From the NCBI GenBank assembly GCA_903822185.1, contig CAIJOA010000048.1, forward strand, positions 62,001 to 126,000: DNA of 64,000 nt, written 5' to 3'. The translations under genes were made by a program, and so were the position numbers. Of this stretch, positions 9,270 through 29,972 are shown one piece after another. The DNA is from an uncultured Rhodospirillales bacterium. Its GTDB lineage: Bacteria; Pseudomonadota; Alphaproteobacteria; ATCC43930; CGMCC-115725. The notes under the pieces were generated by a model. It was not told where the DNA came from and did no database searches. It saw only the letters and a program-made list of their open reading frames with translations. Every line of letters starts with the position of its first letter. Within the stretch, counting starts at the first letter, position 1.

Positions 9270-10154
9270 TCAGTTCCTTGCCGCCAGGGCTTCGTCGCGC
9301 GCGACGGTCATCACACGTAGCGAAAGCTCGCGGGCAACGCGGCGGCGATAATCGGCCGAGGCATGATTGTCGGTGATTGGATCGATCGCATCGCGCAGCA
9401 AATCGGCTGCGGCGGCGAGATCGGTGGCCTCGAGTTTCGTGCCGACCAACCGTTGTTCCATGGCATCGACGCGCAGCGGCGACGGCTCCGCGCCACCGAT
9501 ACCCACCACGGCGCGGCGGCACACGCCGCTCTGATCGAGCGCAACTTGGCATGCCGCCGAAACCAGCGCGAAGTCGCTGCGGCGTATGCTCATTTCATCA
9601 AACGCCGTGCCGATACGGCCGGCGATTTGCCAGATCGGAAAGCGCACTTCGGTCAGGCATTCTTCGCTGGAAAGCGCTGTCGTCATCGCGCCAAGGGCGA
9701 AATTCTTGTCGGCGATAACGCGCGATCCCTGCGAACTGACCGCGGTGATCTCGGCATCGAGCACACGCGCGAGCAGACAAATTTCAGCCGCCGGATCGGA
9801 ATTGGCGAGGCTGCCGCCGACGGTACCGCGATTGCGTGTTTGCGGATGGCCGACCATCGCCAGTCCTTTGGCGAGCAGCGGCAAAGCCTTTGCCAGCGCG
9901 ACATCGTTCAGCGCATCGTACTGACGCGTACAAGCGCGAATGACCACGGCATCCGAATCGATCATGATGCCCTTCAGTGTCTCGATGTGATTGACGTCGA
10001 TGAGCAGACTGGGACGCGTCAGCCGCATCACCATCAGCGGAACGAGCGTCTGGCCGCCGGCGATGATCTTGCCGTCGCCATTGGCGCTATCGAGCAGGCG
10101 GCAAACTTCTTCGACCGAGGCAGCGCGCGCGTAATCGAATTCCGCCGCCTTCAT
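9270..10154 (-). CDS. FAD-binding medium subunit of molybdenum hydroxylase
   Basis: EFDYARAASVEEVCRLLDSANGDGKIIAGGQTLVPLMVMRLTRPSLLIDV...GHPQTRNRGTVGGSLANSDPAAEI. Confidence 0.95.
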   Translation of the reverse strand: MKAAEFDYARAASVEEVCRLLDSANGDGKIIAGGQTLVPLMVMRLTRPSLLIDVNHIETLKGIMIDSDAVVIRACTRQYDALNDVALAKALPLLAKGLAMVGHPQTRNRGTVGGSLANSDPAAEICLLARVLDAEITAVSSQGSRVIADKNFALGAMTTALSSEECLTEVRFPIWQIAGRIGTAFDEMSIRRSDFALVSAACQVALDQSGVCRRAVVGIGGAEPSPLRVDAMEQRLVGTKLEATDLAAAADLLRDAIDPITDNHASADYRRRVARELSLRVMTVARDEALAARN

Positions 10155-10158: not shown

Positions 10159-10527
10159 TCAGGCCGGAAGCTGCAGATAGACCTGGCTGTCGCGAACCGT
10201 CACTTCGATCGGCTGGAGCCGCACCGAGGGATCGCCCGGATGGCAACCGGTGTCGAGACTGAATTCATAGCCATGCCACGGGCAGACGATGTTGCGCGTC
10301 TCGGAAAAGCGCAGGCCCTGACTGGTGCCGTCCGCGCCGATCAATTCTTCGGTCTGATTGAAGATATGACCCTGGCAGACCGGACCGCCGTAATGCGGGC
10401 ATTCGTTCTTGTAGGCGACGATCTTTTCGCCCAGCCGAAAAATGCCGATCTCGAGCCCGCCGACAGCGACGACCCGGGGGCTGTCTTGTTCAAATTCGCT
10501 TAACGCACCGACTTCGATTTCAGCCAT
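10159..10527 (-). CDS. Rieske [2Fe-2S] ferredoxin (copy 1)
   Basis: MAEIEVGALSEF...NECPHYGGPVCQGH...NIVCPWHGYEFSLDTG; CxH and CxxH motifs. Confidence 0.92.
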   Translation of the reverse strand: MAEIEVGALSEFEQDSPRVVAVGGLEIGIFRLGEKIVAYKNECPHYGGPVCQGHIFNQTEELIGADGTSQGLRFSETRNIVCPWHGYEFSLDTGCHPGDPSVRLQPIEVTVRDSQVYLQLPA

Positions 10528-10538
10528 TCCCGCCCCCG

Positions 10539-10898
10539 TCACAGTTCCCCGGCGACCGGCCGGCGGAACCACATTGCCACGTCAAAGAGGTTCAGCCCCG
10601 CCGCGCGGATCATCGCGCAGGCCGCCACAACCGTTTCGGTCGCAGTCACGGTGCCCTCGAGAAACGGCACTAACTCGCGCTCGGCATCCTCGGCCTTGGC
10701 GGCATAAGCTTTCACCGCCGCGGTCAGCACCCGACGCAACTGTTCGTCGGTAATCGTCTGCGCGACACCCTTTTTTATGGCTGTATCGACTGCCTTGCAG
10801 AAAGCAGCGCCTGGATCGACCGCGCGGGTCGGTTTGGGCGCCGGCTTTTTGGCCACCTTTTTGACGGATCGCTTTGGAGGAGAAGGCTTTTTTGTCAC
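10539..10898 (-). CDS. small Lys/Pro-rich-tailed protein paired with Rieske ferredoxin (copy 1)
   Basis: VTKKPSPPKRSVKKVAKKPAPKPTRAV...LTAAVKAYAAKAEDAERELVPFLEGTVTATETVVAACAMIRAAGLNLFDVAMWFR; similar core to 21724-22068. Start assigned tentatively to GTG at 10898. Confidence 0.65.
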   Translation of the reverse strand: MTKKPSPPKRSVKKVAKKPAPKPTRAVDPGAAFCKAVDTAIKKGVAQTITDEQLRRVLTAAVKAYAAKAEDAERELVPFLEGTVTATETVVAACAMIRAAGLNLFDVAMWFRRPVAGEL

Positions 10899-10932: not shown

Positions 10933-12162
10933 TCAACCCTTCTCGGGCCAGTGCGGTGCCGTGCGAATATGCTCGGGACGCACCCCCACCCCGACAAGAC
11001 GGGCGGCCAATCCCTGCAAGAACGGGAAAGCCTGAAGCAGCTTGATAATGAAAGGCGGCTTGAGGGTCGGTGCGCCGCCCAGGACCGGCGTCAGGACCCG
11101 GTTCTGAATCATCAGTTGCATCGCCTGAATGACGCGCATCGGGAATTCGCGCCGTTTCTGGACCCGCGCCAGATCGTCCTCGGTCACGGAGCCAGCCAGA
11201 AGCGGTCCGGCGAGGATGTTCGATGCGGCGACGGCATCCTGAACGGCCAGGTTGATACCCACCCCGGCGACGGGCGACATCGCATGGGCAGCATCGCCGA
11301 TGCAGAGAAACCCGGGCCGGTGCCAGGACTTGGCGCGGTTGACCTGCACCGTCAGCAGCTTGATCTTGTCCCAGTCGTCGAGCAGCGCGACGCGATCGGC
11401 CATGTAAGGCGCCATCTGCGTCAGGGTTGCCCTGAAATCATGGAGGCCGCGCGCCTTGATCGCCTCGAATGTCCCTTTCGGAATGACGTCGCCGAACTGC
11501 CAGTAATCCTGGCGATCAATCGCGATCAGCATCCGGCCGGCGTCGATACGGCCCATGGTCTCGTCGGGATCGCTGGGCTTGCGCGGCATGCTGAACCACA
11601 GCACATCCATCGGCGCGCCGAGTTCATCGACCGCAAGGCCCGCCTGCTGGCGCATCAGCGAAGTGCGACCGTCGGCGGCGATGACGAGATCGGCGCGAAT
11701 CTCCAAGGGGCCAATCGGCGTGGTCGCCGTAACGCCGACGATAAGGCCGTTTTCTTCGATAAGCCCCGTCGCCTCGGCGCCCATTTTCAGCGTGAATGTC
11801 GGATAACGCGCGGCGCGCTTCGAGAGAAAAGTCAGGAAGTCCCATTGCGGCATGAACGCGATATAGGGCGTGCGCAGTTTGGTCCGGGTGAAGTCGGCGA
11901 TCGTCCCGAACGTATCGCCGAACTGAAACCGCAGCCGCGCCGTCTTTTGATGCGGCAAGTGCAGCAGATCGTCGAGACTGCCCAGCTCGTACATCAGTTC
12001 GAGGGTCGAGGGATGGATCGTGTCGCCGCGAAAATCGCGGAAGAAGTCGGCGTGCTTTTCCAGCACGACGACATCGACGCCGGCACGCGCGAGCAGCAAA
12101 CCCGCCATGACGCCGGCCGGCCCGCCCCCCGCAATGCAGCATCGTACCGATGTCTTTTCCAT
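10933..12162 (-). CDS. FAD-dependent aromatic monooxygenase-like oxidoreductase
   Basis: CCIAGGGPAGVMAGLLLARAGVDVVVLEKHADFFRDFRGDTIHPSTLELM...FLCIGDAAHAMSPVAGVGINLAVQDAVAASN; GxGxxG and GD motifs. Confidence 0.93.
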   Translation of the reverse strand: MEKTSVRCCIAGGGPAGVMAGLLLARAGVDVVVLEKHADFFRDFRGDTIHPSTLELMYELGSLDDLLHLPHQKTARLRFQFGDTFGTIADFTRTKLRTPYIAFMPQWDFLTFLSKRAARYPTFTLKMGAEATGLIEENGLIVGVTATTPIGPLEIRADLVIAADGRTSLMRQQAGLAVDELGAPMDVLWFSMPRKPSDPDETMGRIDAGRMLIAIDRQDYWQFGDVIPKGTFEAIKARGLHDFRATLTQMAPYMADRVALLDDWDKIKLLTVQVNRAKSWHRPGFLCIGDAAHAMSPVAGVGINLAVQDAVAASNILAGPLLAGSVTEDDLARVQKRREFPMRVIQAMQLMIQNRVLTPVLGGAPTLKPPFIIKLLQAFPFLQGLAARLVGVGVRPEHIRTAPHWPEKG

Positions 12163-14920: not shown

Positions 14921-16561
14921 TCAGCCGACTTCCGACGAGCGCGGGCTGCGGCGTTCGGTGATGAATTCGAGCAGCGCCGGTTGCCCCTCGTTGATTCGCG
15001 CAACAGCGCGCTTGATCGCCGGCACGATCGCGCCGGGTTCGGTGACGCGTTCGCCGTAGCAACCCAGCGACTTCGCAAGATCGGCGTAATTGCCGCTGAT
15101 GTCGGTCGATTTGAACTTCTCGGTCGAGTACTGCATCACGCCCAGTTCGGCGGCCATGACCGAGTTGTTGAAGAGGATCGACAGGATCGGCAATCCCGCG
15201 CGCGCCGAGGTTTCAAGATCGAGACCGGTGAAGCCAAAAGCCGCATCGCCCCAGACATTGATGCAGAGCTTTTCCGGCGCGGCGAGCTTCGCACCGATGG
15301 CGAGGCCGAGGCCGTAACCCAGCTGCGTGCTCTTGCCCCACCCGATGTAGGAGCGCGGCGTCTTGCACTGCCAGAATGGCATGATCTGGTCGCGCGGGCT
15401 GCCCGAATCATGGGTGACGACGGTGTTCGCGACATCGACCGTATGCATCAAATCCCAGATGACGCGATAGGGCGACAGCGGCGCCGAATTCGAGGTGAGG
15501 CGCGGAAGCCACTCGGCCATCCATTCCTCACGATGGGCATTGATCTCGGCGGTCACGGCGGCGAGACGGCCGCGTGGCTTGCCTTTGAGACGATCGCTGA
15601 CCTCGGCAATCAACATGTCGAGCGCCAGCCCGGCATCGCCGACCAGGGCAAGCCCCGACGCGATGTCCTTGTTGATGTCGGCAGGATCGAGGGTCAAATG
15701 GACCATCTTCTTGCCTTTGGGCATCTGCATGTTGAACGGCGTCGAGGTCCAAGAACAGCCGCAACCGAAGATCAGATCGGCCTTGTGCAGCATGCGATAA
15801 AACTGCCGCGAATGCGTCGTGGCGCTCGCGCCGAGGGCGAGCGGATGGGTTTCGTCGAACACACTCTTGCCGGGGTTGCTGGTACCGACCGGCGCTTCGA
15901 GCAGCTCGGCCAGTTTCTGCAATTGCGTCCAGGCTTTCGCGTAATGGATGCCTTGGCCGGCGAAGATCACCGGGCGTTCGGCCGCAACGAGGGCCGCCGC
16001 GACTTCCGAGACATTCTTTGGATCGGGACCCGAGCGATAACGCTGGGTCTTTTCATAGACCAGCGGCTCCGGCACTTCCTCGTTCCACATATCGCTCGGA
16101 ACTTCCACCATGGTCGGACCCGGACGGCCGTTCTTGGCGATGCTGAAGGCGCGGCGCATCATGTCGGGGACGGCGGCCGCGGTCGTCACCTGTTCAACCG
16201 ATTTCGTCACGTTCTTGAAATTGGCCAACGCGCTGAAGTTAGGTTTCACATTGGCTTGCGAACGCGGATGGCCGGCCGGAATGATGACCATTGGCACCGA
16301 TTCGGCGAAAGCCTGCGCCACACCGCCGAAGGCGTTCTCGGTCCCCGGTCCCTGCTGCATCGCAAAGACGCCGATACGGTCGCCACAGCTCATACGGCCC
16401 AAAGCGTCAGCCATATGGACGCCGGTGCGTTCCTGACGGACGAGGATGGGACGAATTCCTGCTTCGGCCGCCGCTTCGATCACGCCGTTACGCGGGTAAC
16501 AGACCAGATCGGTCACGCCTTCGCGGCGCATGATTTCGGCAATGGCGGCACTGACTTTCAT
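14921..16561 (-). CDS. thiamine-pyrophosphate-dependent enzyme (acetolactate-synthase-like)
   Basis: MKVSAAIAEIMRREGVTDLVCYPRNGVIEAAAEAGIRPILVRQERTGVHMADALGRM...GWGKSTQLGYGLGLAIGAKLAAPEKLCINVWGDAAFGFTGLDLETSARAGLPILSILFNNS; E, GDA..N ThDP motifs. Confidence 0.93.
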   Translation of the reverse strand: MKVSAAIAEIMRREGVTDLVCYPRNGVIEAAAEAGIRPILVRQERTGVHMADALGRMSCGDRIGVFAMQQGPGTENAFGGVAQAFAESVPMVIIPAGHPRSQANVKPNFSALANFKNVTKSVEQVTTAAAVPDMMRRAFSIAKNGRPGPTMVEVPSDMWNEEVPEPLVYEKTQRYRSGPDPKNVSEVAAALVAAERPVIFAGQGIHYAKAWTQLQKLAELLEAPVGTSNPGKSVFDETHPLALGASATTHSRQFYRMLHKADLIFGCGCSWTSTPFNMQMPKGKKMVHLTLDPADINKDIASGLALVGDAGLALDMLIAEVSDRLKGKPRGRLAAVTAEINAHREEWMAEWLPRLTSNSAPLSPYRVIWDLMHTVDVANTVVTHDSGSPRDQIMPFWQCKTPRSYIGWGKSTQLGYGLGLAIGAKLAAPEKLCINVWGDAAFGFTGLDLETSARAGLPILSILFNNSVMAAELGVMQYSTEKFKSTDISGNYADLAKSLGCYGERVTEPGAIVPAIKRAVARINEGQPALLEFITERRSPRSSEVG

Positions 16562-16687: not shown

Positions 16688-17929
16688 TTAAGCTTTGTTG
16701 CGTTCCGCCAGCCGTTTGATTTTCAGTTCGGACATCACCGGTTCCAGATTGAAGAACCGCTTGGCGTTGCCGCCGAGGATGTTCCGCTTCGCCGTCTCGG
16801 TGAGGAACGGCAGGTCATAAATCGTCGAGGGCAGATCCATGTCCCAATGCGGATAGTCCGATGAGTAGCAAAGCTGCGTCTCGGCATTGATCATCTTGAA
16901 GGTCAGCTCGAGCGCTTCCTTGTTGTTGACCATCTCCATCGGCTGCGACGAGTAATACATCTCGCGCATGTAATCCGACGGCTTACGCTTCAACAGCGGC
17001 ACTTCCGAGCTACGCATCATCCATTCATTGTCGAGACGCTGCATCAGGAACGGCACCCAGGCGAGGCCGCTTTCGACCCACATCGTCTTCAGTTTCGGGA
17101 AACGTTCCGGCAGGCCGTTGCACAGCCAGTTCGTCATATGAAGGATATTGAACCAGGCAAAGCCCAGCGCATGGACCGCGAGGAAGCGGTTGCACAACTC
17201 AAGGCTTTGATCGCCGCCCCAGGCGTAAGCGCCATGGAACACCAGCGGCATGTTCATTTCTTCGAGCAGCGCATAGGTCTTCATAAAGGCGTTGTCATAG
17301 ACCGCCTTGTAGCGCGGCGAGACGATGGTGAAGCCGATGACGCCCTTCTTGCCGCCGAAGTCTTTGACCATCTTGTAACTGCCCTCAGGATCGTTGAGCG
17401 GCAGATAGAGGGTCGAACAGATACGCGGTTCCTGTGCCAAAACCTCTTCGCAAAGCCACGCGTTGTAGGCGCGCGCCAGCGCGTTCTCGACATCGGGACG
17501 CGGCGTCAGACCCAGCGTCAACATCGGCGTCGGGAACAAGCAAACGATGTCGATACCGAGCGCATCCATCCAGCGCTTGGTCAGGGTCACGTCGCGATGC
17601 GGCGTCGGCGGGGTGATCTCGCGCGGGTTACCGCCGCTGTGGCGGGTGACGCGACCGAGAATATTTTGATAGCCGCCGGCGCCCAGCGACGAGGCGAGAC
17701 CACCCGCGCCGTAGCCTTGGTACTTGGCCTGATCGCGCATGACCGGGTCTTCGATATATTCGCAAATCTGTTTGAAAGAATGCGTCTCGAAGTGATGGCC
17801 ATCGACATCGACGATCAGGAAATCTTCATATCGCCGCTGGACCGATTGCTGATCCGCATGCGCCAGAAGAGTCTTGGTATCGACCTCGGCGAGCGATAAA
17901 TCCCGGAAATTGGCTGTATCCATCGGCAT
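16688..17929 (-). CDS. divergent amidohydrolase-superfamily protein, tandem copy 1
   Basis: MPMDTANFRDLSL...DVDGHHFETHSF...PLVFHGAYAWGGDQ...LHMTNWLCNGLPERFPKLKTMWVESGLAW...YSSDYPHWDMDLPSTIYDLPFLTETAKRNILGGNAKRFFNL. Confidence 0.9.
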   Translation of the reverse strand: MPMDTANFRDLSLAEVDTKTLLAHADQQSVQRRYEDFLIVDVDGHHFETHSFKQICEYIEDPVMRDQAKYQGYGAGGLASSLGAGGYQNILGRVTRHSGGNPREITPPTPHRDVTLTKRWMDALGIDIVCLFPTPMLTLGLTPRPDVENALARAYNAWLCEEVLAQEPRICSTLYLPLNDPEGSYKMVKDFGGKKGVIGFTIVSPRYKAVYDNAFMKTYALLEEMNMPLVFHGAYAWGGDQSLELCNRFLAVHALGFAWFNILHMTNWLCNGLPERFPKLKTMWVESGLAWVPFLMQRLDNEWMMRSSEVPLLKRKPSDYMREMYYSSQPMEMVNNKEALELTFKMINAETQLCYSSDYPHWDMDLPSTIYDLPFLTETAKRNILGGNAKRFFNLEPVMSELKIKRLAERNKA

Positions 17930-17956
17930 CGCGCTTTCTCCCTATCGTCTTTTATA

Positions 17957-19198
17957 TCAGCCGCGCTGCGTGCGTTCGGCCAGGCGTTTCGTTTTCAATT
18001 CAGATACCACTGGTTCCAGATTGAAGAACCGTTTGGCGTTGCCGCCGAGAATGTTCCGCTTCGCCTGATCGCCGAGGAACGGCAGATCGTAAATTGTCGA
18101 AGGCAGATCCATGTCCCAATGCGGATAATCCGACGAGTACATCAACTGCGTTTCCGCGTTGATCATCTTGAAGGTCAGTTCCAGCGCTTCGCGGTTGTTC
18201 ACCATTTCCATCGGCTGCGAGGAATAGAACATGTCGCGCATATAATCCGAGGGCCGCTTCTTCAGCAGCGGCACTTCGGAGCTGCGCATCATCCATTCAT
18301 TGTCGAGACGCTGCATCAAGAAGGGAATCCAGGCGAGACCGCTTTCGACCCAGGCCACTTTCAGCTTGGGGAAACGTTCCGGCATGCCGTTGCAGAGCCA
18401 GTTGGTGCAATGAAGGATGTTGAACCAGGTGAAGCCCAGCGCATGCACCGAGATGAACTTGTTGCAGAGCTGCATGCTCTGATCGCCGCCCCAGGCATAG
18501 GCACCATGGAACACCAGTGGCATGCCGGTTTCCTCGAGCAGGGCGTAGGTCTTGATATATGCGTTGTCATAGACCGCCTTGTAATGCGGCGAGACGATCG
18601 TGAAGCCGATGACGCCCTTCTTGCCGGCAAATTCCTTGACCATCTGATAGCTGGCCTCGGGATCGTTCAGCGGCAGATACATCGTCGAGCGGATGCGCGG
18701 CTCGTGCGCCAGCACGTTCTCGGCCAGCCAGCGGTTATACGCACGCGCCAGCGCGACCTCGACCTCGGGCCGCGGCGTTAGGCCCAGCGTCAGCATCGGC
18801 GTCGGGAAAAGACAGGCCACATCGATGCCGAGCGCATCCATCCAACGCTTGGTCAGGGTGATGTCGCGATGCGGCACCGGCGGCGTTTGTTCTTTTGGAT
18901 TGCCGGTCGAGCGGGTGACACGGCCCATCATGTTCTGGTAGCCGCCGCCCGAAACCGCCGTCGATATACCGCCGCTGCCATAGCCCTGATAGCGGGCCTG
19001 TTCGCGCATCACCGGATCTTCGATGTACTCGATGATCTGCGCCCAGGAGGAAAGTTCGAAATGATGCCCATCGACGTCGGCGATGAAGAAATCTTCATAG
19101 CGGCGCTGGATCGATTGCTGGTCGGCATGCGCCAGCAGCTTCGCCGTATCCGTCTCGACGACGGGAACATCCCGGAAGTTGATGGTGTCCATGGGCAT
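17957..19198 (-). CDS. divergent amidohydrolase-superfamily protein, tandem copy 2
   Basis: MPMDTINFRDVPV...DVDGHHFELSSW...same FHGAYAWGGDQ / SSDYPHWDMDLPSTIYDLPFLGDQAKRNILGGNAKRFFNL signatures. Confidence 0.9.
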   Translation of the reverse strand: MPMDTINFRDVPVVETDTAKLLAHADQQSIQRRYEDFFIADVDGHHFELSSWAQIIEYIEDPVMREQARYQGYGSGGISTAVSGGGYQNMMGRVTRSTGNPKEQTPPVPHRDITLTKRWMDALGIDVACLFPTPMLTLGLTPRPEVEVALARAYNRWLAENVLAHEPRIRSTMYLPLNDPEASYQMVKEFAGKKGVIGFTIVSPHYKAVYDNAYIKTYALLEETGMPLVFHGAYAWGGDQSMQLCNKFISVHALGFTWFNILHCTNWLCNGMPERFPKLKVAWVESGLAWIPFLMQRLDNEWMMRSSEVPLLKKRPSDYMRDMFYSSQPMEMVNNREALELTFKMINAETQLMYSSDYPHWDMDLPSTIYDLPFLGDQAKRNILGGNAKRFFNLEPVVSELKTKRLAERTQRG

Positions 19199-19215
19199 AA
19201 TCTTAATTCCTGACG

Positions 19216-20448
19216 TTAGGCATTGGCGTTGTTGCGTTCGGCGAGCCGACGCGATTTGACCTCGGACACGACGGGCCCAAGATTGAAGGCCCGTTTGGCA
19301 TTGCCGCCGAGAATGTTCCGTTTCGCCTGTTCCGACAGGAACGGCAGATCATAGATCGTGCTGGGCAAATCCATGTCCCAGTGCGGATAATCGGATGAGT
19401 AGAGCAGCTGCGTTTCCGCGTTGATCATCTTGAAGGTGAGTTCCAGCGCCTCGCGGTTGTTCACCATCTCCATCGGCTGGGTCGAGTAATACATCTCGCG
19501 CATATAGTCCGACGGCTTCTTCTTCAGCAGCGGCACTTCCGAGCTGCGCATCATCCATTCATTGTCGAGCCGCTGCATCAGGAAGGGAATCCAGGCGAGC
19601 CCGCTTTCGATCCAGACCGTGCGCAGGTTCGGAAACCGTTCCGGCATCCCGTTGCAGAGCCAGTTGGTCATGTGCAGAATGTTGAACCAGGTGAAGCCCA
19701 GCGCATGCACCGCCATGAAGCGGTTACACAGTTCCGCCTGTTGATCACCGCCCCAGGTATAAGCGCCATGGAAGACGAGCGTCAGATTGCGCTCTTCGAT
19801 CGCGCGCCAGGTCTTGGCATAGACATTGTCATAGACGCCGGTCTTGACCGGCGAGACGACGGTGAAGCCGATCACGCCCTTCTTGTCGCCGAAATCCTGA
19901 ACCATCTTGTAACAGGCTTCCGGGTCACGCATCGGCAGATAGAGCGTCGAATGAAGCCGCGGCTCGTGTGCCAGAACATTCTCGACCAGCCAGCGGTTAT
20001 AGGCGCGCGCCAAAGCCGTCTCGACATCGATGCGCGGACAGGTACCGAGCTGCAGCATCGGCGTCGGGAACATGCAGGCGATGTCGATGCCCATCGCATC
20101 CATCCACCGCTTCGTCAGGGTGATGTCGCGATGCGGCGTCGGCGGGGTTTTTTCTTTCTGAACGCCAGGATAACGCCCAACGCGGCCGGCAAGATTCTGA
20201 TAGCTGCCCGGACCCGAGGCGATGCCGGTGCGGCCGAAGCCCTGATACTGCGCCTGTTCGCGCATGATCGGGTCTTCGATATAACCGATAATCTCGGCGA
20301 ACGAATCCGTCTCGTAGTGATGCGCATCGACATCGACGATGAGGAAATCCTCGTACCGGCGCTGCGCCGCCTGCTGCGCCGCGTGCGACAGCAGCGTCTT
20401 GGTGTCGAAGGATTCGACGGCTAGATCGCGATAATTGACGGTATCCAT
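19216..20448 (-). CDS. divergent amidohydrolase-superfamily protein, tandem copy 3
   Basis: MDTVNYRDLAVESFD...DVDAHHYETDSF...FHGAYTWGGDQ...SSDYPHWDMDLPSTIYDLPFLSEQAKRNILGGNAKRAFNL; start placed at 20448. Confidence 0.9.
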   Translation of the reverse strand: MDTVNYRDLAVESFDTKTLLSHAAQQAAQRRYEDFLIVDVDAHHYETDSFAEIIGYIEDPIMREQAQYQGFGRTGIASGPGSYQNLAGRVGRYPGVQKEKTPPTPHRDITLTKRWMDAMGIDIACMFPTPMLQLGTCPRIDVETALARAYNRWLVENVLAHEPRLHSTLYLPMRDPEACYKMVQDFGDKKGVIGFTVVSPVKTGVYDNVYAKTWRAIEERNLTLVFHGAYTWGGDQQAELCNRFMAVHALGFTWFNILHMTNWLCNGMPERFPNLRTVWIESGLAWIPFLMQRLDNEWMMRSSEVPLLKKKPSDYMREMYYSTQPMEMVNNREALELTFKMINAETQLLYSSDYPHWDMDLPSTIYDLPFLSEQAKRNILGGNAKRAFNLGPVVSEVKSRRLAERNNANA

Positions 20449-20459
20449 CGCGGCGTCCG

Positions 20460-21686
20460 TTATTGCGCGGGACGGCTCGCGAGGCGCTGCGCTTTCACCT
20501 CGGAAATCGTCGGGTCGAGGTTGAAGACCTTCTTGGCGTTGCCGCCGAGAATGTTGCGCTTCGCCTGTTCCGACAGGAACGGCAGATCGTAAATCGTCGA
20601 GGGCAGGTCCATGTCCCAATGCGGATAGTCCGACGCGTACATCAGTTGCGTCTCGGCATTGATCATCTTGAAGGTGAGTTCCAGCGCCTCACGGTTATGC
20701 ACCATCTCCATCGGCTGGGTGGAGTAGTACATTTCGCGCATGTAATCGCTGGGACGGCGCTTGAGCAGCGGCACCTCGGAACTACGCATCATCCATTCGT
20801 TATCGAGGCGCTGCATCAGGAAGGGAATCCAGGCGAGGCCGCTTTCGACCCAGATGGTCTTGAGCTTGGGGAACCGTTCCGGCATGCCGTTGCACAGCCA
20901 GTTCGTGCAGTGAAGAATGTTGAACCAGGAAAAGCCCAGCGCGTGCACGGCGAGGAAGCGGTTGCACAGCGACATGCTTTGATCGCCGCCCCAGGCGAAG
21001 GCGCCGTGAAACACCAGCGGCAGGCCCATTTCCTCGATCAGAGCGTAGCTCTTCATATAGGCGTTGTCATAGACCGCCTTGTAATGCGGCGAGCAGATCG
21101 TGAAGCCGATGACGCCGGGCTTGCCGCCGAAATCCTTGACCATCTGATAGGTCGCTTCGGGATCGTTGATCGGCAGATAGAGCGATGATTTGATGCGCGG
21201 CTCGGCGGGAAGAATCTCTTCGCAGAGCCAGCGGTTATAGGCGCGCGACAGCGCGACTTCGACCTCGGCGCGCGGGGTCAGGCCGAGGCTGAGCATCGGC
21301 GTCGGGAACATGCAGACCTGGTCGATGCCGATCGCATCCATCCAGCGTTTGGTCAGGGTGATATCGCGATGCGGCGTCGGCGGCGTCTTTTCCTTGCGCC
21401 GGCCCGGATAGCGCGTCACGCGCCCGCCCAATTCCTGCGACGCGCCATTGGCGCCGGCAATGCCGCTGCCACCAAACCCCTGATACTTCGCCTGATCCCG
21501 CATCACCGGGTCTTCGATATAGTCGCAGATTTTGGCGAAAGAGGCCGTCTCGTAATGATGGCCGTCGATATCGGCGATAAAGAAATCCTCATACCGGCGC
21601 TGAATCGCCTGCTGCGTCGCGTGTTCCAGCATCGTCGTCGTATCGAATTCTTCGACCGACAAATCGCGGAAATTGACGGTATCCAT
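20460..21686 (-). CDS. divergent amidohydrolase-superfamily protein, tandem copy 4
   Basis: MDTVNFRDLSVEEFDTT...DIDGHHYETASF...FHGAFAWGGDQ...ASDYPHWDMDLPSTIYDLPFLSEQAKRNILGGNAKKVFNL; start placed at 21686. Confidence 0.9.
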   Translation of the reverse strand: MDTVNFRDLSVEEFDTTTMLEHATQQAIQRRYEDFFIADIDGHHYETASFAKICDYIEDPVMRDQAKYQGFGGSGIAGANGASQELGGRVTRYPGRRKEKTPPTPHRDITLTKRWMDAIGIDQVCMFPTPMLSLGLTPRAEVEVALSRAYNRWLCEEILPAEPRIKSSLYLPINDPEATYQMVKDFGGKPGVIGFTICSPHYKAVYDNAYMKSYALIEEMGLPLVFHGAFAWGGDQSMSLCNRFLAVHALGFSWFNILHCTNWLCNGMPERFPKLKTIWVESGLAWIPFLMQRLDNEWMMRSSEVPLLKRRPSDYMREMYYSTQPMEMVHNREALELTFKMINAETQLMYASDYPHWDMDLPSTIYDLPFLSEQAKRNILGGNAKKVFNLDPTISEVKAQRLASRPAQ

Positions 21687-21723: not shown

Positions 21724-22068
21724 TTAGCTGTCGGCGGTATCAGCGTCTTCGGGTTGGCGTTTGCCGACGGTGGACCAGGATTGCCACAAGGCGAGATCGA
21801 ACAGCGGGACATTCACGCCTTCGAGCATCGCGGTGCAGCCGATCATCACGTCGGTCGCGGTAATGCCGCTATTACGGGCGAAGGGACGCGGCGGATTACC
21901 CACCTGCGCCTTTGCCGCATAGAGACGGACGACGCTGGCAAACAATTGGCCCAGCGAATCGTCCGGCACGTCACCCAATTTGTCTTCTTCGATCACTTCG
22001 GCAAAGACCGCCGCGATGTCACTCGCGAGTTCGGCGATCTTCGCTTTGCGATCGTCAGACGTTGACAT
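21724..22068 (-). CDS. small helical protein paired with Rieske ferredoxin (copy 2)
   Basis: MSTSDDRKAKIAELASDIAAVF...LFASVVRLYAAKAQ...GITATDVMIGCTAMLEGVNVPLFDLALWQSW; shares LYAAKA / TATxxxxxCxAM / LFDxAxW pattern with 10539-10898. Confidence 0.75.
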   Translation of the reverse strand: MSTSDDRKAKIAELASDIAAVFAEVIEEDKLGDVPDDSLGQLFASVVRLYAAKAQVGNPPRPFARNSGITATDVMIGCTAMLEGVNVPLFDLALWQSWSTVGKRQPEDADTADS

Positions 22069-22420
22069 ACACGGCCCCGTTTTTCTCGACGACGTTGAAT
22101 TTCTGCAGGCGAATGCGCTTGTCGCAGACATTGACCCCGTCCTCGAGATGGAACTCGTAGGCGTGCCAGGGGCAGACAATATGCATGTCGTTCTTGTCGT
22201 AGTCTTGCTGCAGGAACGTGCGATCCGGCGCAATGATGTCGAGAACCGCGGGCATCCGCACACCCTCGCAGACCGGGCCACCCTGATGCGGGCAATGGTT
22301 GCGATAGGCGTAATATTTGCCGCCGTGGCGGATGACGCCGATTTCGACCTCGCCGGCCGTGATCACGCGCACGCCGCCTTCGACAATCTCGCCGTCCTTG
22401 CACACCAATACTTCAGACAT
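22055..22420 (-). CDS. Rieske [2Fe-2S] ferredoxin (copy 2)
   Basis: MSEVLVCKDGEIVEGGVRVI...NHCPHQGGPVCEGVRM...HIVCPWHAYEFHLEDG. Confidence 0.93.
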   Translation of the reverse strand: MSEVLVCKDGEIVEGGVRVITAGEVEIGVIRHGGKYYAYRNHCPHQGGPVCEGVRMPAVLDIIAPDRTFLQQDYDKNDMHIVCPWHAYEFHLEDGVNVCDKRIRLQKFNVVEKNGAVYVNV

Positions 22421-22568: not shown

Positions 22569-23618
22569 TTAGTCAGTCATGACATAGGTGTTGAAGACAT
22601 GTTTGCCGGTGCGCGACGGGAAGCCGCCCCGCACCGCACCCGCGCGCTGATCCTGATAGATCGTTGCCATCTGGGGGCTGAGCGGACGTGAATTCGGCAT
22701 CGACAGCCACATCCGCAGCAGATGCCGCTTGCGGTCTTCCTCGGGCCAATCCTCGAACGCGGTCCGGGAATGAAAGCAGATGTGATTGTTCACGAGCTGT
22801 AGATCGCCCGGCTGGAACATCATCGAGAAATTGAATTCCTCGCTGTTGGTCAGTTCACTGACCAAAGCCTGGGCTTCGATCTGCGCCGGGGTAAAGCGCG
22901 GCACCTCGGGGAAGGCCTGGGCATTCTTGATCTGCAATTCGACGAAGCGGCAGCAGAAATGGCCGTCGCATTCGCTGAAGACCGGCTGCTGGTAATAAGG
23001 TTTCTGGTCCGGCCCTTCTTGCCGGTTCCAGCTCCAAGTGAAAGGCTGATACAGCACCTCGAGCAGATCGGGCCGTCGCCGGGCGATTTCGTTCCGCACG
23101 GCGACCGAGCTGGCGAGCTTGCTGAGGCCGCCGCTTTTGGCGACATGGAGGACGAACAATCCGGTCACGTCGCAGGTGTCTGTATGGAAGCTAAGCCGTT
23201 GATTTGATTGATAGCCGCGCCCGGCGGCGCTGTCGGTCTGGACGCCGAAATCCTTGACGTCGCCGAGGAGATCACCGACCCGGCTTTGCGAGCGGGCGGT
23301 GCCGATATGCTTGCCCATTCCCCAATAGATCAGCCGCAGATCGTCCTTGCTGTAACGGGCATAGGGAAACCCGCGAAAAAGCTGCAAGCCGCAGCCTTTT
23401 TCGAGCTGGTTGCGCGCCATTTCGAAGCAGCGTGCCACTGTGGGCAGCGGAAAATCGTCGCGTTCCAGCGTTTCGAGCGTCTTGCCGCGCGACCGCGCCG
23501 TGGCAAAGGCCTGTTCGATCTCGGCGATTTCGGCGGGACTCCAATCGTGAATCCATTCGGTGGATTTCACCAGGTCGGGGCCACGCCAATTGCTGGGGCC
23601 CTCAATGATCCGCGCCAT
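22569..23618 (-). CDS. TauD/TfdA-like Fe(II)/2-oxoglutarate dioxygenase
   Basis: MARIIEGPSNWRGPDL...LSFHTDTCDVTGLF (HxD)...NNHICFHSRTAFEDWPEEDRKRHLLRMWL (distal H/R). Confidence 0.88.
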   Translation of the reverse strand: MARIIEGPSNWRGPDLVKSTEWIHDWSPAEIAEIEQAFATARSRGKTLETLERDDFPLPTVARCFEMARNQLEKGCGLQLFRGFPYARYSKDDLRLIYWGMGKHIGTARSQSRVGDLLGDVKDFGVQTDSAAGRGYQSNQRLSFHTDTCDVTGLFVLHVAKSGGLSKLASSVAVRNEIARRRPDLLEVLYQPFTWSWNRQEGPDQKPYYQQPVFSECDGHFCCRFVELQIKNAQAFPEVPRFTPAQIEAQALVSELTNSEEFNFSMMFQPGDLQLVNNHICFHSRTAFEDWPEEDRKRHLLRMWLSMPNSRPLSPQMATIYQDQRAGAVRGGFPSRTGKHVFNTYVMTD

Positions 23619-23762
23619 ATCTTCCTCCAAACCGGCTTGTTGGGCCGGACGTTACGCTGTCGTTTTTCCCGAGTCCATGCGGGCCGAAAATCGGTTAGGC
23701 TTCGCCCTGCCCACCAAGGGCGCGAAAACACGACCCAAGAGTCGGACAACGGGGGAACGGAT

Positions 23763-24725
23763 ATGAAGCATCAACGGACCTGGGGCGCGGCCATCGCCCT
23801 TCTGCTGGCTGTGAGCGCGACCAGCGCGACGGCCGCCGACAAAATCCGCCTCGGCAAAGCCAATTCCAACGGCTGGACCTTCATCCCCGCCGATATCGGC
23901 ATGTCCGAGGGCATCTTCGCCAAATACGGCATCGAGCTGGAAATCGCCGGCCTCGCCGGGGACGCCAAACTGCAGCAGGCGCTGATCGCCAACGCCCTCG
24001 ACATCGCGCTGGGCAGCGGCCCGTCGATGGCCTTCGTCGCCAAGGGCGCGCCGGTCACCACGGTCGCCGCTTATGCCGGCGAGCCGCGCCAGATCGCGAT
24101 CATCGTCCTGCCCGATTCGCCGATCCACAAGATCGCCGACATGAAAGGCAAGACACTGGGCATCTCGACCGTTGGTTCGCTGACCGAATGGCTAGGCGGC
24201 CAGATGGGCGTGCAGGAAGGCTGGGGCAAGGACGGGGTGAAGACGCTGCCGCTGGGCGACAACGACGCCAATCTTGCCGCGCTGCGCACCCATCAGATCG
24301 ACGGCATGCTGGCCGCGACCGAGGTCGGCTATCAGCTCGAGGAAAAGAAGATCGGGCGTAATTTCATGAGCATGGAAAAATACGCGCCGCATTTTCATGC
24401 CCACGTGATCTTCGCCCGTCAGGAATTGGCCGAGCAAAAGCCCGACGTGGTCGAACGTTTCCTCAAAGGTTTTTTCGCCTCGATCGCCTTCATGAAGACG
24501 CACCGCGAAGAGACCTCGAAGCTCGCCGCAAAATTCCTGCATGAAAGCGTCGAGATAGCCGACAAGACCTACGACCATGAAATCTCGATGCTGGAAACCG
24601 ACGGCCATTTCGATCCCAAAGCGATCGAGGTGCTGAAAACATCGTTCGTCGATATGGGCATCCTCAAGGAAAAGCCCCGCGACGATCAGTTGTTCACGAC
24701 CAAGTTCGTGCCGGTAAAGCCGTGA
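23763..24725 (+). CDS. SBP-01, NitT/TauT-type ABC substrate-binding protein
   Basis: Sec signal + ADKIRLGKANSNGWTFIPADIGMSEGIFAKYGIELEI..GDAKLQQALI..LGSGPSMAFVAKG..DSPIHKIADMKGKTLGISTVGSLTEWL.. Confidence 0.95.
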   Translation: MKHQRTWGAAIALLLAVSATSATAADKIRLGKANSNGWTFIPADIGMSEGIFAKYGIELEIAGLAGDAKLQQALIANALDIALGSGPSMAFVAKGAPVTTVAAYAGEPRQIAIIVLPDSPIHKIADMKGKTLGISTVGSLTEWLGGQMGVQEGWGKDGVKTLPLGDNDANLAALRTHQIDGMLAATEVGYQLEEKKIGRNFMSMEKYAPHFHAHVIFARQELAEQKPDVVERFLKGFFASIAFMKTHREETSKLAAKFLHESVEIADKTYDHEISMLETDGHFDPKAIEVLKTSFVDMGILKEKPRDDQLFTTKFVPVKP

Positions 24726-24743
24726 CAGCTGCTTCCTTATCAT

Positions 24744-24824
24744 CGTCATTCCCGCGAAAGCGGGAATCCATGGCAACCACACGCCGCATTGTTGGATGGA
24801 CCACCGTTTTCGCGGGGGGTGACG
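24744..24824. repeat. Palindromic repeat family D, copy 1
   Basis: cgtcattcccgcgaaagcgggaatccatgg...ttggatggaccaccgttttcgcggggggtgacg; inverted arms; also at 28828 and 49962. Confidence 0.85.
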
Positions 24825-25766
24825 ATGTTTTTGTTGGGTCTAGTAACGCTCATCTGCATCGCATCACCCGCCCATGCCGCCGACAAGCTGATCGTCGGCA
24901 AGGCGGCGAATGCCTGGACCTTCATTCCGGTGAATGTCGGTGTCGAGGTCAGCACCTTCGCCGCGCAAGGCGTCGAGGTCGAAATCGTCAATCTCGCTAG
25001 CGACGCGAAGTTGCAGCAGGCCCTCGTCGCCGGCAGCGTCGATATCGGCGTCATCGGCGGCCCGACCATGGCGCAATCGGTGCGCGGTTCGCCGGTGCTG
25101 GCGGTCGCCGCCTTCGCGCGCGAGCCGCGCAACATGGCGATCATCACCGTTGCCGATTCGCCGATCCGTCAGGTCGCCGACCTTAAGGGCAAGCTGCTGG
25201 GCGTGCCGGGCACCGCGTCGCTGACCGAATGGATGGCACGGCGGGTCGCGTTGGTCGAAGGCTGGGGCAAGGACGGCGTGCGCACAGTTTCATTGGGCGG
25301 GTTCGACGCCAATCTCGCGGCGCTGAAGACGAAGCAGACGGATGCGATGGTGACTGCCACCGAGATCGGTTACATGCTCGAGGCACGCGGCGAAGGCCGG
25401 ATCGTCACCGTCCTCGGCGCCTATGCACCGCAATTCCACGCCCATGTGATCGTCGCCCGCAATCAGGTCGTGGCCGAACATCCCGACAGCGTCGCGCGTT
25501 TTCTCAAAGGCTATTTCGACGCCATCGCTTTCATGAAAAAGAACAAGGCGAAGACCACGGAAATCGCCATGGGGCTGCTGAAGCTGGACGAAGCGGTGAT
25601 GAACCGCGCCTATGACGAAGAGATCGGCATGCTGCAGGATGACGGGCATTTCGATCGGCAGGCCGTCGATGTCCTCAAGCAATCCTTCGTCGATATGGGA
25701 CTGCTGCCCGACATACCGCGTGACGATCAGATTCTGACGACACGCTACGAACCGATGCGCCCCTAA
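24825..25766 (+). CDS. SBP-02, NitT/TauT-type substrate-binding protein
   Basis: MFLLGLVTLICIASPAHAADKLIVGKAANAWTFIPVNVGVEVSTFAAQGVEVEIVNLASDAKLQQALVAGSVDIGVIGGPTMAQSVRG; start abuts repeat D1. Confidence 0.93.
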   Translation: MFLLGLVTLICIASPAHAADKLIVGKAANAWTFIPVNVGVEVSTFAAQGVEVEIVNLASDAKLQQALVAGSVDIGVIGGPTMAQSVRGSPVLAVAAFAREPRNMAIITVADSPIRQVADLKGKLLGVPGTASLTEWMARRVALVEGWGKDGVRTVSLGGFDANLAALKTKQTDAMVTATEIGYMLEARGEGRIVTVLGAYAPQFHAHVIVARNQVVAEHPDSVARFLKGYFDAIAFMKKNKAKTTEIAMGLLKLDEAVMNRAYDEEIGMLQDDGHFDRQAVDVLKQSFVDMGLLPDIPRDDQILTTRYEPMRP

Positions 25767-25778
25767 CGAGGATAACCC

Positions 25779-26735
25779 ATGAATTTTCTGCGCCTGCTTC
25801 CTGTTTTCGGCATCGCCTTGATCGGCGCGGCTCCCGCCTTCGCCGCCGACAAGGTCCATCTCGGCAAAGCCGAGGCCGTGCCGCTGTCGTTCATTCCCGC
25901 CGATATCGGCGTCGAGAAGGGCTTCTTCGCCAAATACGGCCTCGATGTCGAAATCAGCGACATGGGTGGCGACGCGAAGCTGCAGCAAGCGCTCGCCGCC
26001 GGCAGTCTCGATTTTGGCATGGGCAGCGGCCCGTCGATGGCCTTCGCCGTCAAAGGCTCGCCCTCGATCGCGGTCGCCGCCTTTGCCGCCGAGCCGCGTA
26101 ACATGATCGTTCTGGTCAACGCCGATTCACCGCTGAAGACGGTGGATGATTTGAAAGGAAAATTGATCGGCGTCTCCAGCAAAGGATCACTGACCGACTG
26201 GCTGGCCAACCGCATCGCCGTTCGCGAGAATTGGGAACCGGGCAGCATACGGACTTTGGGCCTCGGCACATTCGATGCCAGCTTCGCCGCCGTTCGCACG
26301 CATCAGACCGACGCCATGGTGACCGCCGTCGAGAAAGGCCTCCAGTTCGAGCAGCAGGGGATCGGCCGCATCCTGCTCGGCTTCGAAACCATCGCGCCTC
26401 ATTTTCATACCCATGTCGTGCTCGCGCGCCGCGCGCTGATCACCGAGAATCCCGATCTGGTCACGCGCTTCCTCAAAGGCTTCTTCGCCGCGATTCATTT
26501 CATGAAGACCAACAAGGACGAATCCGTCGCCATCGCCGCGAAGAACCTGCGTCAAGACCCGGCGGTGATGAGCCATTCCTATGATCGCGAGATCGCGATG
26601 CTGGAGAATGACGGCCATTTTGATCCTGAAGCGATCGCGCTGCTGAAAGAATCCTTTGTCGAGATGGGAACTCTGCCGGAAAAACCGAGAGACGATCAGA
26701 TGTTCGTCAGCACGTTCGTCCCGGTGAAGCCGTAA
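25779..26735 (+). CDS. SBP-03, NitT/TauT-type substrate-binding protein
   Basis: AADKVHLGKAEAVPLSFIPADIGVEKGFFAKYGLDVEISDMGGDAKLQQALAAGSLDFGMGSGPSMAFAVKG. Confidence 0.95.
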   Translation: MNFLRLLPVFGIALIGAAPAFAADKVHLGKAEAVPLSFIPADIGVEKGFFAKYGLDVEISDMGGDAKLQQALAAGSLDFGMGSGPSMAFAVKGSPSIAVAAFAAEPRNMIVLVNADSPLKTVDDLKGKLIGVSSKGSLTDWLANRIAVRENWEPGSIRTLGLGTFDASFAAVRTHQTDAMVTAVEKGLQFEQQGIGRILLGFETIAPHFHTHVVLARRALITENPDLVTRFLKGFFAAIHFMKTNKDESVAIAAKNLRQDPAVMSHSYDREIAMLENDGHFDPEAIALLKESFVEMGTLPEKPRDDQMFVSTFVPVKP

Positions 26736-26744
26736 AATTTAATC

Positions 26745-26816
26745 CGTCATTGCGAGCATAGCGAAGCAATCCAGTCTGTCCGCGCACTGGATTGCTTCGC
26801 TTCGCTCGCAATGACG
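26745..26816. repeat. Palindromic repeat family B, copy 1
   Basis: cgtcattgcgagcatagcgaagcaatccagtctgtccgcgcactggattgcttcgcttcgctcgcaatgacg. Confidence 0.92.
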
Positions 26817-26834
26817 CCTACTTTGGAGTGCCGA

Positions 26835-27791
26835 ATGAATCTTCGTTTTCGTGCTGCAATCCTCGGCATCGCGCTCATCGTCTCGAGCGCCGCAAATGCC
26901 GCCGACAAGATCCATGTCGGCAAAGCGATCGATGATAATTGGGTTTATGTCCCGGTCGATATTGCCGCCGAGAAAGGCTTCTACGCCAAATACGGCCTCG
27001 ACGTCGAAATCTCCCAGCTGTCGGGCGGCGCCAAACTGCAGCAGGCGCTGCTCGCCGGCAGCATCGATCTCGGTTTCGGCGGCGCGCAGGCGATGGCGCT
27101 TTCGGTCAAAGGTTCGCCGACCATCGCCGTCGCGTCCTTCGCCGGCGAGCCGTACAATTTCTCGATCGTCGTCGCGCAGGATTCGCCGATCAAGACGATC
27201 GCCGACCTTAAAGGCAAAGGGATCGGCTTTGCCACCAACGGCTCACTGCCCGATTGGCTGTCGCAGCGTTTCGCCATCGCCCAGGGTTGGGGCAAGGACG
27301 GTATGAAGCGCGTCACCACCGGCGGCGCGCAAGCGAGCAACGCGGCGGTGCAATCGCATCAGCTCGATTCGATGATGACGACGACCGAGCTGGGCCTGTT
27401 CCTCGAATCGAAAAAGCAGGGCCGCATCATCGTCGGCATGCAGGATTACGCCAAACATCTGGTGACGCAGGCGATCTTCGCACATACGCCCTTCGTCGAA
27501 GCGCATCCCGAATTGGTCGATCGCTATCTCAAGGCTTATTTCGCCACGATCGCCTGGATCAAAAGCCATAAAGACGAGACCAGCGAGATCGCCGCCCGCA
27601 TCCTGCATATGGACAAGGCGGTGATGGAGCGAACCTACGACGAAGAATTATTCATGCTCCCCGATGACGGGAGCTTCGATCCGGCCGGGGTCGAGATGCT
27701 GCGCGATTCCTTCGTCGAACTGGGCATTCTCGATAAGAAGCCGACCGAAGACCAGATTTTGACCAAGCGCTTTCTCCCTGTAAAACCGTAA
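26835..27791 (+). CDS. SBP-04, NitT/TauT-type substrate-binding protein
   Basis: MNLRFRAAILGIALIVSSAANAADKIHVGKAIDDNWVYVPVDIAAEKGFYAKYGLDVEISQLSGGAKLQQALLAGSIDLGFGGAQAMALSVKG; start at 26835 preferred (SD ggag). Confidence 0.93.
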   Translation: MNLRFRAAILGIALIVSSAANAADKIHVGKAIDDNWVYVPVDIAAEKGFYAKYGLDVEISQLSGGAKLQQALLAGSIDLGFGGAQAMALSVKGSPTIAVASFAGEPYNFSIVVAQDSPIKTIADLKGKGIGFATNGSLPDWLSQRFAIAQGWGKDGMKRVTTGGAQASNAAVQSHQLDSMMTTTELGLFLESKKQGRIIVGMQDYAKHLVTQAIFAHTPFVEAHPELVDRYLKAYFATIAWIKSHKDETSEIAARILHMDKAVMERTYDEELFMLPDDGSFDPAGVEMLRDSFVELGILDKKPTEDQILTKRFLPVKP

Positions 27792-27822
27792 CGATTTTGC
27801 ATTTCGGTTTCGGAGTTTTGTG

Positions 27823-28782
27823 ATGCGTGGATTACGGTGCGCGGCGCTCGCTTGCGCCATGGTGATGGGTATTTCGGCCGGCGCACATGCCACCGACACG
27901 GTGAAGGCCGGCAAGTCAGTCGGCTCTCTCTGGGCCTTCCTGCCGGTCGATGTCGGCATGGAAGAAGGCATCTTCGCCAAGTACGGCATCAATGTCGAAA
28001 TCAGCGCCCTCGGCAGCGGCCCGAAACTGCAACAGGCCCTCGCCTCGCAAAGCATTGATTTCGGCCTCAGCGCCGGGTCAGACATGGCCTTCGCCGTCAA
28101 AGGCTCGCCGATCCGCGCCGTCGCCGCCTTCGCCGAGGAACCGCGCAGCGTCGTCATCATGGTCAATGACGATTCGCCGCTGAAGACCGTCGCCGACCTT
28201 AAAGGCAAGCTGATTGGCATCCCCGGCCTTGGCACCGTCAGCGAATGGCTGATCTGGCACATGGCCATCGCCGAAGGTTGGGGCAAAGACGGCGTGAAGA
28301 TCGTGGCGCAGGGCGCGGTCGAATCGAACGTGGCCGCCATGCGCACCCATGCCATCGACGCCATGGCCGGCCCAGTCGAAGTCGGCTTCAATCTCGAAGA
28401 CAAGCATCAAGGCCGTATCCTTGTCCCGCTGGCGCAATATGCGCCGCATTTCCACGCCCATATCATCTTCGCCCAACAGACGCTGATCGCGCAAAAGCCC
28501 GACGTCGTCGATCGTTTCCTCAAAGGTTTTTTCGCCTCGATCGCCTTCATCAAGGCGAATAAGGAAAAGACCAACGAGATCGCGATGAAGACGCTGAACG
28601 AAAGCCATTCGATCGTCGATCGTACCTACGATTACGAAATCTCGATGCTGCTGTCCGACGGCAAGTTCGATCCGCAAGCGATCGATATCATCAAGAAGTC
28701 GTGGGTCGATCTCGGCATGCTGCCGACCCTGCCGAACGACGACCAGTTCATGACGACTCAGTTTTTGCCGGTGAAGCCGTAA
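27823..28782 (+). CDS. SBP-05, NitT/TauT-type substrate-binding protein
   Basis: VKAGKSVGSLWAFLPVDVGMEEGIFAKYGINVEISALGSGPKLQQALASQSIDFGLSAGSDMAFAVKG...MAGPVEVGFNLEDKHQGR. Confidence 0.95.
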   Translation: MRGLRCAALACAMVMGISAGAHATDTVKAGKSVGSLWAFLPVDVGMEEGIFAKYGINVEISALGSGPKLQQALASQSIDFGLSAGSDMAFAVKGSPIRAVAAFAEEPRSVVIMVNDDSPLKTVADLKGKLIGIPGLGTVSEWLIWHMAIAEGWGKDGVKIVAQGAVESNVAAMRTHAIDAMAGPVEVGFNLEDKHQGRILVPLAQYAPHFHAHIIFAQQTLIAQKPDVVDRFLKGFFASIAFIKANKEKTNEIAMKTLNESHSIVDRTYDYEISMLLSDGKFDPQAIDIIKKSWVDLGMLPTLPNDDQFMTTQFLPVKP

Positions 28783-28827
28783 GGAAAGTCCTGCTCGCCC
28801 GCGCCGATCACCGACAGCTTCCCTTCT

Positions 28828-28906
28828 CGTCACCCCCGCGAAAGCGGGGGTCCATGCCAACAACGAACTCGCTGCCTGATGGATTCCCGCTTTCGCGGGA
28901 ATGACG
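28828..28906. repeat. Palindromic repeat family D, copy 2
   Basis: cgtcacccccgcgaaagcgggggtccatgcc...tgatggattcccgctttcgcgggaatgacg. Confidence 0.85.
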
Positions 28907-29012
28907 AATGGAGCGCGACCCTTCCCTCACCTCGCCATGCGCGGAGAGGGTATCAAGTTTGATCGACAGCCACGGCTCCCTTTCGTATGTTGCCCACTTA
29001 GGGAGGAACAAC

Positions 29013-29972
29013 ATGCGCATCATCCGAAATCTCGGTTTCGCCGTCATCGCTTTGGCGCTCGCCAGCGCACCGCAGGCACGCGCCTTGGACAAGGTTCACG
29101 CCGGCACCGCCGTCCCGCTTTGGGCGTTCCTGCCGCTGCAGATCGGGCAGCAGCAAGGTATCTGGGAAAAATACGGCATCGATCTCGACATCACCAACAG
29201 CGGCAGCGACGCGAAGCTGCAGCAGGCGATGACCGCGGGCAGCCTCGATTTCGGCCTCGGTAGCGGCGCGGCGATGGCCTTTGCCGCGAAGGGCGCACCG
29301 GTTCGCGCCGTTGCCGCTTTCGCCGGCGAGCCTAAGACCGTCGTCATCATCGTCGCCGCCGATTCACCGGTGAAGGAACCCAAGGATCTCAAAGGCAAGC
29401 TGGTCGTGATGCCGGGCGTCGGATCGGTCAGCGAATGGCTGGTCTGGCAGATGGCGATTCAGGAAGGCTGGGGCAAAGACGGCATCAATACGCTGGGCCA
29501 GGGCGGTATCCCCGCCAATGTCGCGTCGATCAAAACGCATCAAGCCGACGCCATGACCGGCCCGCCGGAAGTCGGCTATCTGCTGGATGCGAACCATGAA
29601 GGCCATGTCGCCTTCGACATGGCGAAATACGCGCCGCATTTCCACGCGCATATCATCTTCGCGCGCAAGGAATTGATCGACAGCAATCCCGATCTGGTCA
29701 CACGTTTCCTCAAAGGCTTCTTCGCCGGCGTCGCCTATCTGAAGACGCACAAGAAAGAGACGACCGAGCTTGCGGTGAAGGAATTGAACAACACGCCCGA
29801 GATCATGAATCGCGTCTATGATAACCTGTCCGGCTGGCTGGAAAGCGATGGCCATTTCGACCCGCAGGCGATCGAGGTATTGAAGACGTCGTTCGTCGAT
29901 ATGGGCATCCTCGACACCAAGCCCGCCGACGACAGCTTCATGACCACGAAGTTCGTACCAGTGAAGCCGTAA
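29013..29972 (+). CDS. SBP-06, NitT/TauT-type substrate-binding protein
   Basis: SD gggagga, MRIIRNLGFAVIALALASAPQARALDKVHAGTAVPLWAFLPLQIGQQQGIWEKYGIDLDITNSGSDAKLQQAMTAGSLDFGLGSGAAMAFAAKG. Confidence 0.94.
   Translation: MRIIRNLGFAVIALALASAPQARALDKVHAGTAVPLWAFLPLQIGQQQGIWEKYGIDLDITNSGSDAKLQQAMTAGSLDFGLGSGAAMAFAAKGAPVRAVAAFAGEPKTVVIIVAADSPVKEPKDLKGKLVVMPGVGSVSEWLVWQMAIQEGWGKDGINTLGQGGIPANVASIKTHQADAMTGPPEVGYLLDANHEGHVAFDMAKYAPHFHAHIIFARKELIDSNPDLVTRFLKGFFAGVAYLKTHKKETTELAVKELNNTPEIMNRVYDNLSGWLESDGHFDPQAIEVLKTSFVDMGILDTKPADDSFMTTKFVPVKP

Follow-up and report, generated by a model that had tools for sequence, protein, structure and literature searches.

Predicted amidohydrolase-related dinuclear oxygenases encoded in tandem beside a Rieske ferredoxin and a candidate third component in an uncultured Rhodospirillales bacterium

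Background

To our knowledge, the amidohydrolase-related dinuclear oxygenases (AROs: AibH2, SfbO, PtmU3) are Mn/Fe or Fe/Fe monooxygenases that were recognised as a class only very recently; few of them have been characterised, and for most no substrate is known. PtmU3, the diiron hydroxylase of the platensimycin pathway, is a natural-product pathway enzyme and is not known to be part of an operon of a Rieske gene, a small-protein gene and an ARO gene. The class itself has been published already (PMC10811679, PMC10401708). AibH1H2 forms, with AibG and AibF, the 2-aminoisobutyrate hydroxylase of Rhodococcus wratislaviensis (PMC7782822, PMC10401708). The metal ligands of AibH2 are D25, H27, H211, E265, D337 and H340 (Hibi et al., PMC7782822), and a second-sphere residue, D342, is needed for full activity, its mutation lowering activity (PMC10401708). 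SfbO and the other AROs of Liu et al. 2024 (PDB 8SM6-8SM9) have a dinuclear site and a Rieske neighbourhood (PMC10811679). ACMSD and related PF04909 decarboxylases share the fold family and differ in having an HxH motif, no Glu or second His ligand, and a mononuclear metal site (PMC10811679).

Tandem genes and their metal site

The window, by which we mean the whole 64,000-nt stretch of DNA that was analysed, carries four intact ORFs in tandem on the minus strand (16688-21686), here called c1 to c4 (Table 1). They are 74-81% identical to one another and each has a PF04909 match. A sequence-only reading of the window had reported four tandem paralogs with the motif D-x-D-(G/A)-H-H-(F/Y)-E, and the motif is indeed present in every copy (DIDGHHYE, DVDAHHYE, DVDGHHFE and DVDGHHFE across c1-c4), with 0 matches to the corresponding DNA pattern expected in shuffles. 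It had also called the motif altered, but D-x-D-x-H-H is the normal motif of the published ARO class, of which D-x-D-(G/A)-H-H-(F/Y)-E is the signature, and is not peculiar to this locus.

In alignments with PDB sequences, D25 and H27 of AibH2 correspond to D43 and H45 of c3, and H211, E265, D337 and H340 to H231, E285, D357 and H360. Each of c1-c4 has the complete set of six dinuclear-site ligands. The alignment columns of these ligands, and that of c3 D362, the equivalent of AibH2 D342, hold a single residue in 52 of 52 relatives. The constancy of the six ligands, like the zero expectation from shuffles, speaks against a chance motif. The later motifs VFHGA, ILH(C/M)TNW and SDYPHWD are carried by all four copies, with c1 reading ASDYPHWD where SSDYPHWD had been given. 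Among the candidate later ligands, H231 and the SDYPH block held up; the His of ILH (H263) is not a reported AibH2 ligand, and Glu285, at the position of the bridging Glu, had been missed. The nearby ACMSD-like protein has the canonical HGH, as had been said of it, but lacks a Glu at the place of the bridging one as well as a second His beyond the Asp, and is thus a fair negative control.

Table 1. Genes and gene groups of the locus. Positions are those of the window.
Feature	Position	Strand	Remark
c1, ARO-type PF04909 protein	20460-21686	minus	first in transcription order
c2, ARO-type PF04909 protein	19216-20448	minus	DVDAHHYE
c3, ARO-type PF04909 protein	17957-19198	minus	copy modelled
c4, ARO-type PF04909 protein	16688-17929	minus
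Small helical protein, 114 aa	21724-22068	minus	proposed third component
Rieske [2Fe-2S] ferredoxin	22055-22420	minus	CPH...CPWH; proposed electron donor
TauD/TfdA-family dioxygenase	22569-23618	minus	upstream of Rieske gene; 84% identical gene in same place in sister species
ThDP-dependent enzyme	14921-16561	minus	downstream of c4; NCBIfam PRK06154, above cut-off
Second small-protein copy	10539-10898	minus	no ARO adjacent
Second Rieske ferredoxin	10159-10530	minus	paired with second small protein
FAD monooxygenase	10933-12162
UbiD decarboxylase, ACMSD-like decarboxylase, CoxL/CoxS/CoxM-type molybdenum hydroxylase	3732-10154	minus
ACMSD-like protein	5366-6367		HGH
NMT1/SsuA-type binding proteins, first array	23730-41208	plus
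NMT1/SsuA-type binding proteins, second array	48013-59471	minus
ABC permease/ATPase set	52054-54421
Hydantoinase A/B (oxoprolinase-type) gene pair	59543-63570	minus	edge of binding-protein array

Sequence and fold relatives

The best PDB sequence matches were 8sm7, 8sm6 (SfbO), 8sm9 and AibH2 (6m1w_B), and PtmU3 (E 9e-16) and ACMSD-type decarboxylases scored weaker than these AROs. An AlphaFold model of c3 (pLDDT 81, pTM 0.85; low confidence at residues 1-13 and 73-99) places AROs and AibH1H2 before any ACMSD. The top 20 Foldseek matches of the model were all ARO or AibH1H2 structures (E from 2e-18); ACMSD came first at rank 21 (E 1e-12), ACMSD-fold structures also matching well, and PtmU3 at rank 43. 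The likeness to AibH1H2 and PtmU3 that the sequence-only reading drew is apt, with PtmU3, of the same fold and class, more distant than AibH2 or SfbO.

Taken together, c1-c4 have the PF04909 fold, the six ligands and a small Rieske gene adjoining on the same strand, and the mononuclear HxH + His + Asp site of ACMSD type is not found in them, DxH standing in place of HxH. We consider it highly probable that they are ARO-type dinuclear monooxygenases, that is, oxygenases and not hydrolases, as had been predicted. The prediction stands on sequence and fold because of the six ligands and the ARO-first PDB matches, and the near-constant Rieske neighbours described below also support it.

The locus shares with AibH1H2 the PF04909 barrel, the six AibH2 ligands and a Rieske partner encoded alongside (PMC7782822, PMC10401708). 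AibH1H2 is however a heterotetramer with one mononuclear subunit, whereas here there are four AibH2-type copies, and its cluster encodes a dedicated reductase, AibF. Among the genes annotated at 2.8-23.6 kb, none beside c1-c4 was recognised as an AibF-type NADH:ferredoxin reductase, so an NAD(P)H-linked reductase is presumably encoded elsewhere. The aib gene cluster names no small protein (PMC7782822), and the main text of PMC10811679 describes none for SfbO, whereas one accompanies c1-c4.

The small helical protein

The Rieske ferredoxin and the small protein that had been noted next to the array are both real genes. The small protein was underrated in that first reading and is the less known part of the locus. 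It has no NCBIfam match, the protein of the window has no Pfam match, and no convincing relative was found by PDB sequence or fold. CENP-H and other isolated weak matches (CENP-H in 1 of 31 members) were taken as noise of helical composition. The protein is predicted to be all-helical (pLDDT 80). Its family diverges fast, with a mean column identity of 34% compared to 63% for the AROs, and keeps a C-terminal segment, T-A-T-x-V...F-E-L-G-M-W-Q, whose Trp is invariant. There is no conserved Cys or His in the family, the most conserved residues being Trp, Phe, Glu, Leu and Thr.

A search with only the small-protein profile gave matches in 11 of 296 genomes of Alphaproteobacteria and in 70 of 250 genomes of the family of genome G405. 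The 87 loci considered consist of 17 from the first scan, 30 from the second and 40 further places of the G405 family that were picked by hand and are mostly weaker-scoring. Within 600 bp and on the same strand, an ARO was found at 85 of the 87 loci, a Rieske gene at 84 and both at 82. Of the five exceptions, two lie in loci shorter than 2 kb that are probably cut by a contig edge, and in another the genes are arranged as Rieske-ARO-small. The remaining two, L091 and the second small-protein copy of the window, are without an ARO. The usual gene order is Rieske-small-ARO. The small-protein and Rieske ORFs overlap by 14 nt in the window and most other loci allow an overlap too, which is only suggestive of translational coupling of the small protein to the Rieske gene because the most upstream candidate was taken as the start of each ORF.

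The small protein is absent beside several AROs of the same wider clade (L028, L075, L076, L060 and solo copies), some of which sit in genomes carrying another copy with it, so it is not needed next to every ARO copy. On the haloarchaeal plasmids of L170 and L171 the ARO genes overlap the Rieske gene, with no small protein between them. We read the small protein as the third component of an ARO subfamily; the shared neighbourhood of small protein, Rieske and ARO does not prove a physical complex. Neither a conserved third component nor a genus-level paralog array is described in the main texts of the ARO papers cited here. If the unannotated component is real, reconstitution of subfamily members would call for the Rieske and small proteins together.

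Origin of the array

Most relatives have one ARO per triad. A sister species of the same genus (record CAIKMD01, uncultured Rhodospirillales) has five AROs in the same place, flanked, as in the window, by the TauD gene and by DUF2252/GT2 genes. The c1 copies of the two species are 90% identical. In the tree, each of c1, c2 and c4 branches with its namesake from the sister species, c3 lies within a c3/c4 group, and two dispersed solo AROs in each of the two genomes also pair up. Because copies pair with copies of the sister species, the ARO set predates the species split. The dN/dS values were 0.10-0.17 between orthologs and 0.17-0.23 between paralogs, dS being near 1 and the values therefore rough. 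The paralogs of the array form a set at the level of the genus that is under purifying selection.

Thirty positions are fixed within ortholog pairs and differ between copies, and c2 is the copy most often different at them. In the TIM-barrel fold of this kind, substrates bind at the loops after the barrel strands, and 10 of 29 such positions lie in these loops (p about 0.004). The enrichment is modest and, since the test was framed once the data had been seen, is only a hint of substrate specialisation. Sets of ARO paralogs that share one redox module within a genus would form a natural series in which to learn what governs substrate choice in this fold. Two observations on copy number may be added. 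The ThDP gene stands where the sister species has its fifth ARO copy (L011:14996-16213), by gene replacement, loss or gain. In Roseiarcaceae bacterium H3SJ34-1 (loci L075-L080) the ARO profile matches 14 times at E <= 1e-20, on several contigs, and the small protein accompanies some of these matches and not others.

Alternative explanations

Since PF04909 is common to both groups, ACMSD structures also match the c3 model by fold and a true ACMSD-like gene lies within the window, one may ask whether c1-c4 are mononuclear ACMSD-type hydrolases or decarboxylases merely placed beside redox genes. We regard this as very improbable, given the replacement of HxH by DxH, the Glu and second His that are invariant in the family and absent from the ACMSD-like proteins of the window and other loci, the higher rank of AROs by sequence and fold, and a Rieske neighbour that is missing from very few loci. 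Hetero-oligomers had been raised as a possibility in the sequence-only reading, and some copies might be structural subunits, as AibH1 is for AibH2. In favour of this, two PF04909 proteins make up the AibH1H2 heterotetramer (PMC7782822), the four copies here are encoded together, and L086 and L089 have two AROs around one Rieske-small pair. AibH1, however, is without the second His ligand, whereas c1-c4 keep all six ligands (the H360 equivalent in each), most relatives have a single ARO, and SfbO is active as a single expressed gene product (PMC10811679). As no copy shows the AibH1 pattern, nothing points to a pair of catalytic and non-catalytic subunits, and such an arrangement seems unlikely to us, while the copies of c1-c4 may mix within oligomers.

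Simple amplification for dosage, with no difference in substrate, would agree with the high similarity of the copies and the low dN/dS of all pairs. The copies are, however, only 74-81% identical and are old, since the sister species has orthologs, and the copy-specific positions are modestly enriched in post-strand loops (by a post hoc test), which leaves dosage with a rather small chance. We give about the same limited weight to the small protein being a metal chaperone or assembly factor for an Fe/Fe or Mn/Fe site and not a catalytic component. It is small, helical, fast-evolving and present once for several AROs, and for AibH1H2 it has been speculated that Mn is delivered by a chaperone (PMC10401708), but it has no conserved Cys or His and its most consistent link is to a Rieske and an ARO in the same transcription unit.

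Proposed mechanism

In the reading we prefer, c1-c4 would be paralogous catalytic subunits, each an amidohydrolase TIM barrel that houses an Fe/Fe or Mn/Fe site. The Rieske ferredoxin would pass electrons to the dimetal site (D43, H45, H231, E285, D357 and H360 in c3 numbering), which in its reduced state would bind O2 and, as AibH2 and SfbO do, hydroxylate a small organic substrate at a C-H bond. The small helical protein would most likely dock on the ARO via its conserved C-terminal FELGMWQ segment and gate or couple electron delivery and substrate access, and one Rieske and one small protein would serve several ARO copies specialised for related substrates. We offer only tentatively, as somewhat less than an even chance, that in a large ARO subfamily the small protein acts as a regulator or coupler, a counterpart of the MmoB-type proteins of soluble methane monooxygenase, and that several substrate-specialised barrels can draw on a single Rieske-small pair.

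Neighbouring genes and substrate

At the Arsenicitalea locus L021, genes for a CoxMSL-type molybdenum hydroxylase, an ACMSD-like protein, an alpha/beta hydrolase, a UbiX-like flavoprotein and UbiD directly precede Rieske-small-ARO, with TctC/TctA, a ThDP enzyme and an aldehyde dehydrogenase after the ARO. Its UbiD is 75% identical to that of the window, where the same kinds of gene as at L021 recur at 3.7-12.2 kb beside the second small protein and Rieske. At L047, ARO-small-Rieske is accompanied by an FAD oxidoreductase, a PF04909 gene, 4-carboxy-4-hydroxy-2-oxoadipate aldolase and 4-hydroxybenzoate 3-monooxygenase. These neighbours hint at aromatic or heteroaromatic acid catabolism.

Several substrates were considered. 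The Mo-hydroxylase, ACMSD-like and isochorismatase neighbours had prompted picolinate degradation and PicB (6-hydroxypicolinate monooxygenase). Clusters of pic genes are common in Alcaligenaceae, and ARO matches (E <= 1e-20) occurred in 3 of 121 Alcaligenaceae genomes, which argues against identity as judged by family occurrence only. Indole-3-carboxylate monooxygenase is a flavin enzyme and unrelated. A sulfonate, suggested by TauD, NMT1-type binding proteins and the sulfate in SfbO, is not favoured, the SfbO arginines not being conserved. The sulfate-binding R232 and R235 of SfbO align with Ala253 and Phe256 of c3 in the PDB sequence alignment, and a substrate different from that of SfbO is expected because of this replacement.

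Further observations concern the surroundings. The second Rieske and second small protein (10159-10898, minus strand) lie beside the FAD monooxygenase and CoxMSL genes without an adjacent ARO, and the FAD monooxygenase, second small protein and CoxM are also kept in the sister species. The window has 25 paralogous NMT1/SsuA-type solute-binding proteins in two arrays, with which a single ABC permease/ATPase set was seen, and a hydantoinase A/B gene pair borders the binding-protein array. In other parts of the genome, solo ARO copies likewise have one NMT1/SsuA-type binding protein as a neighbour.
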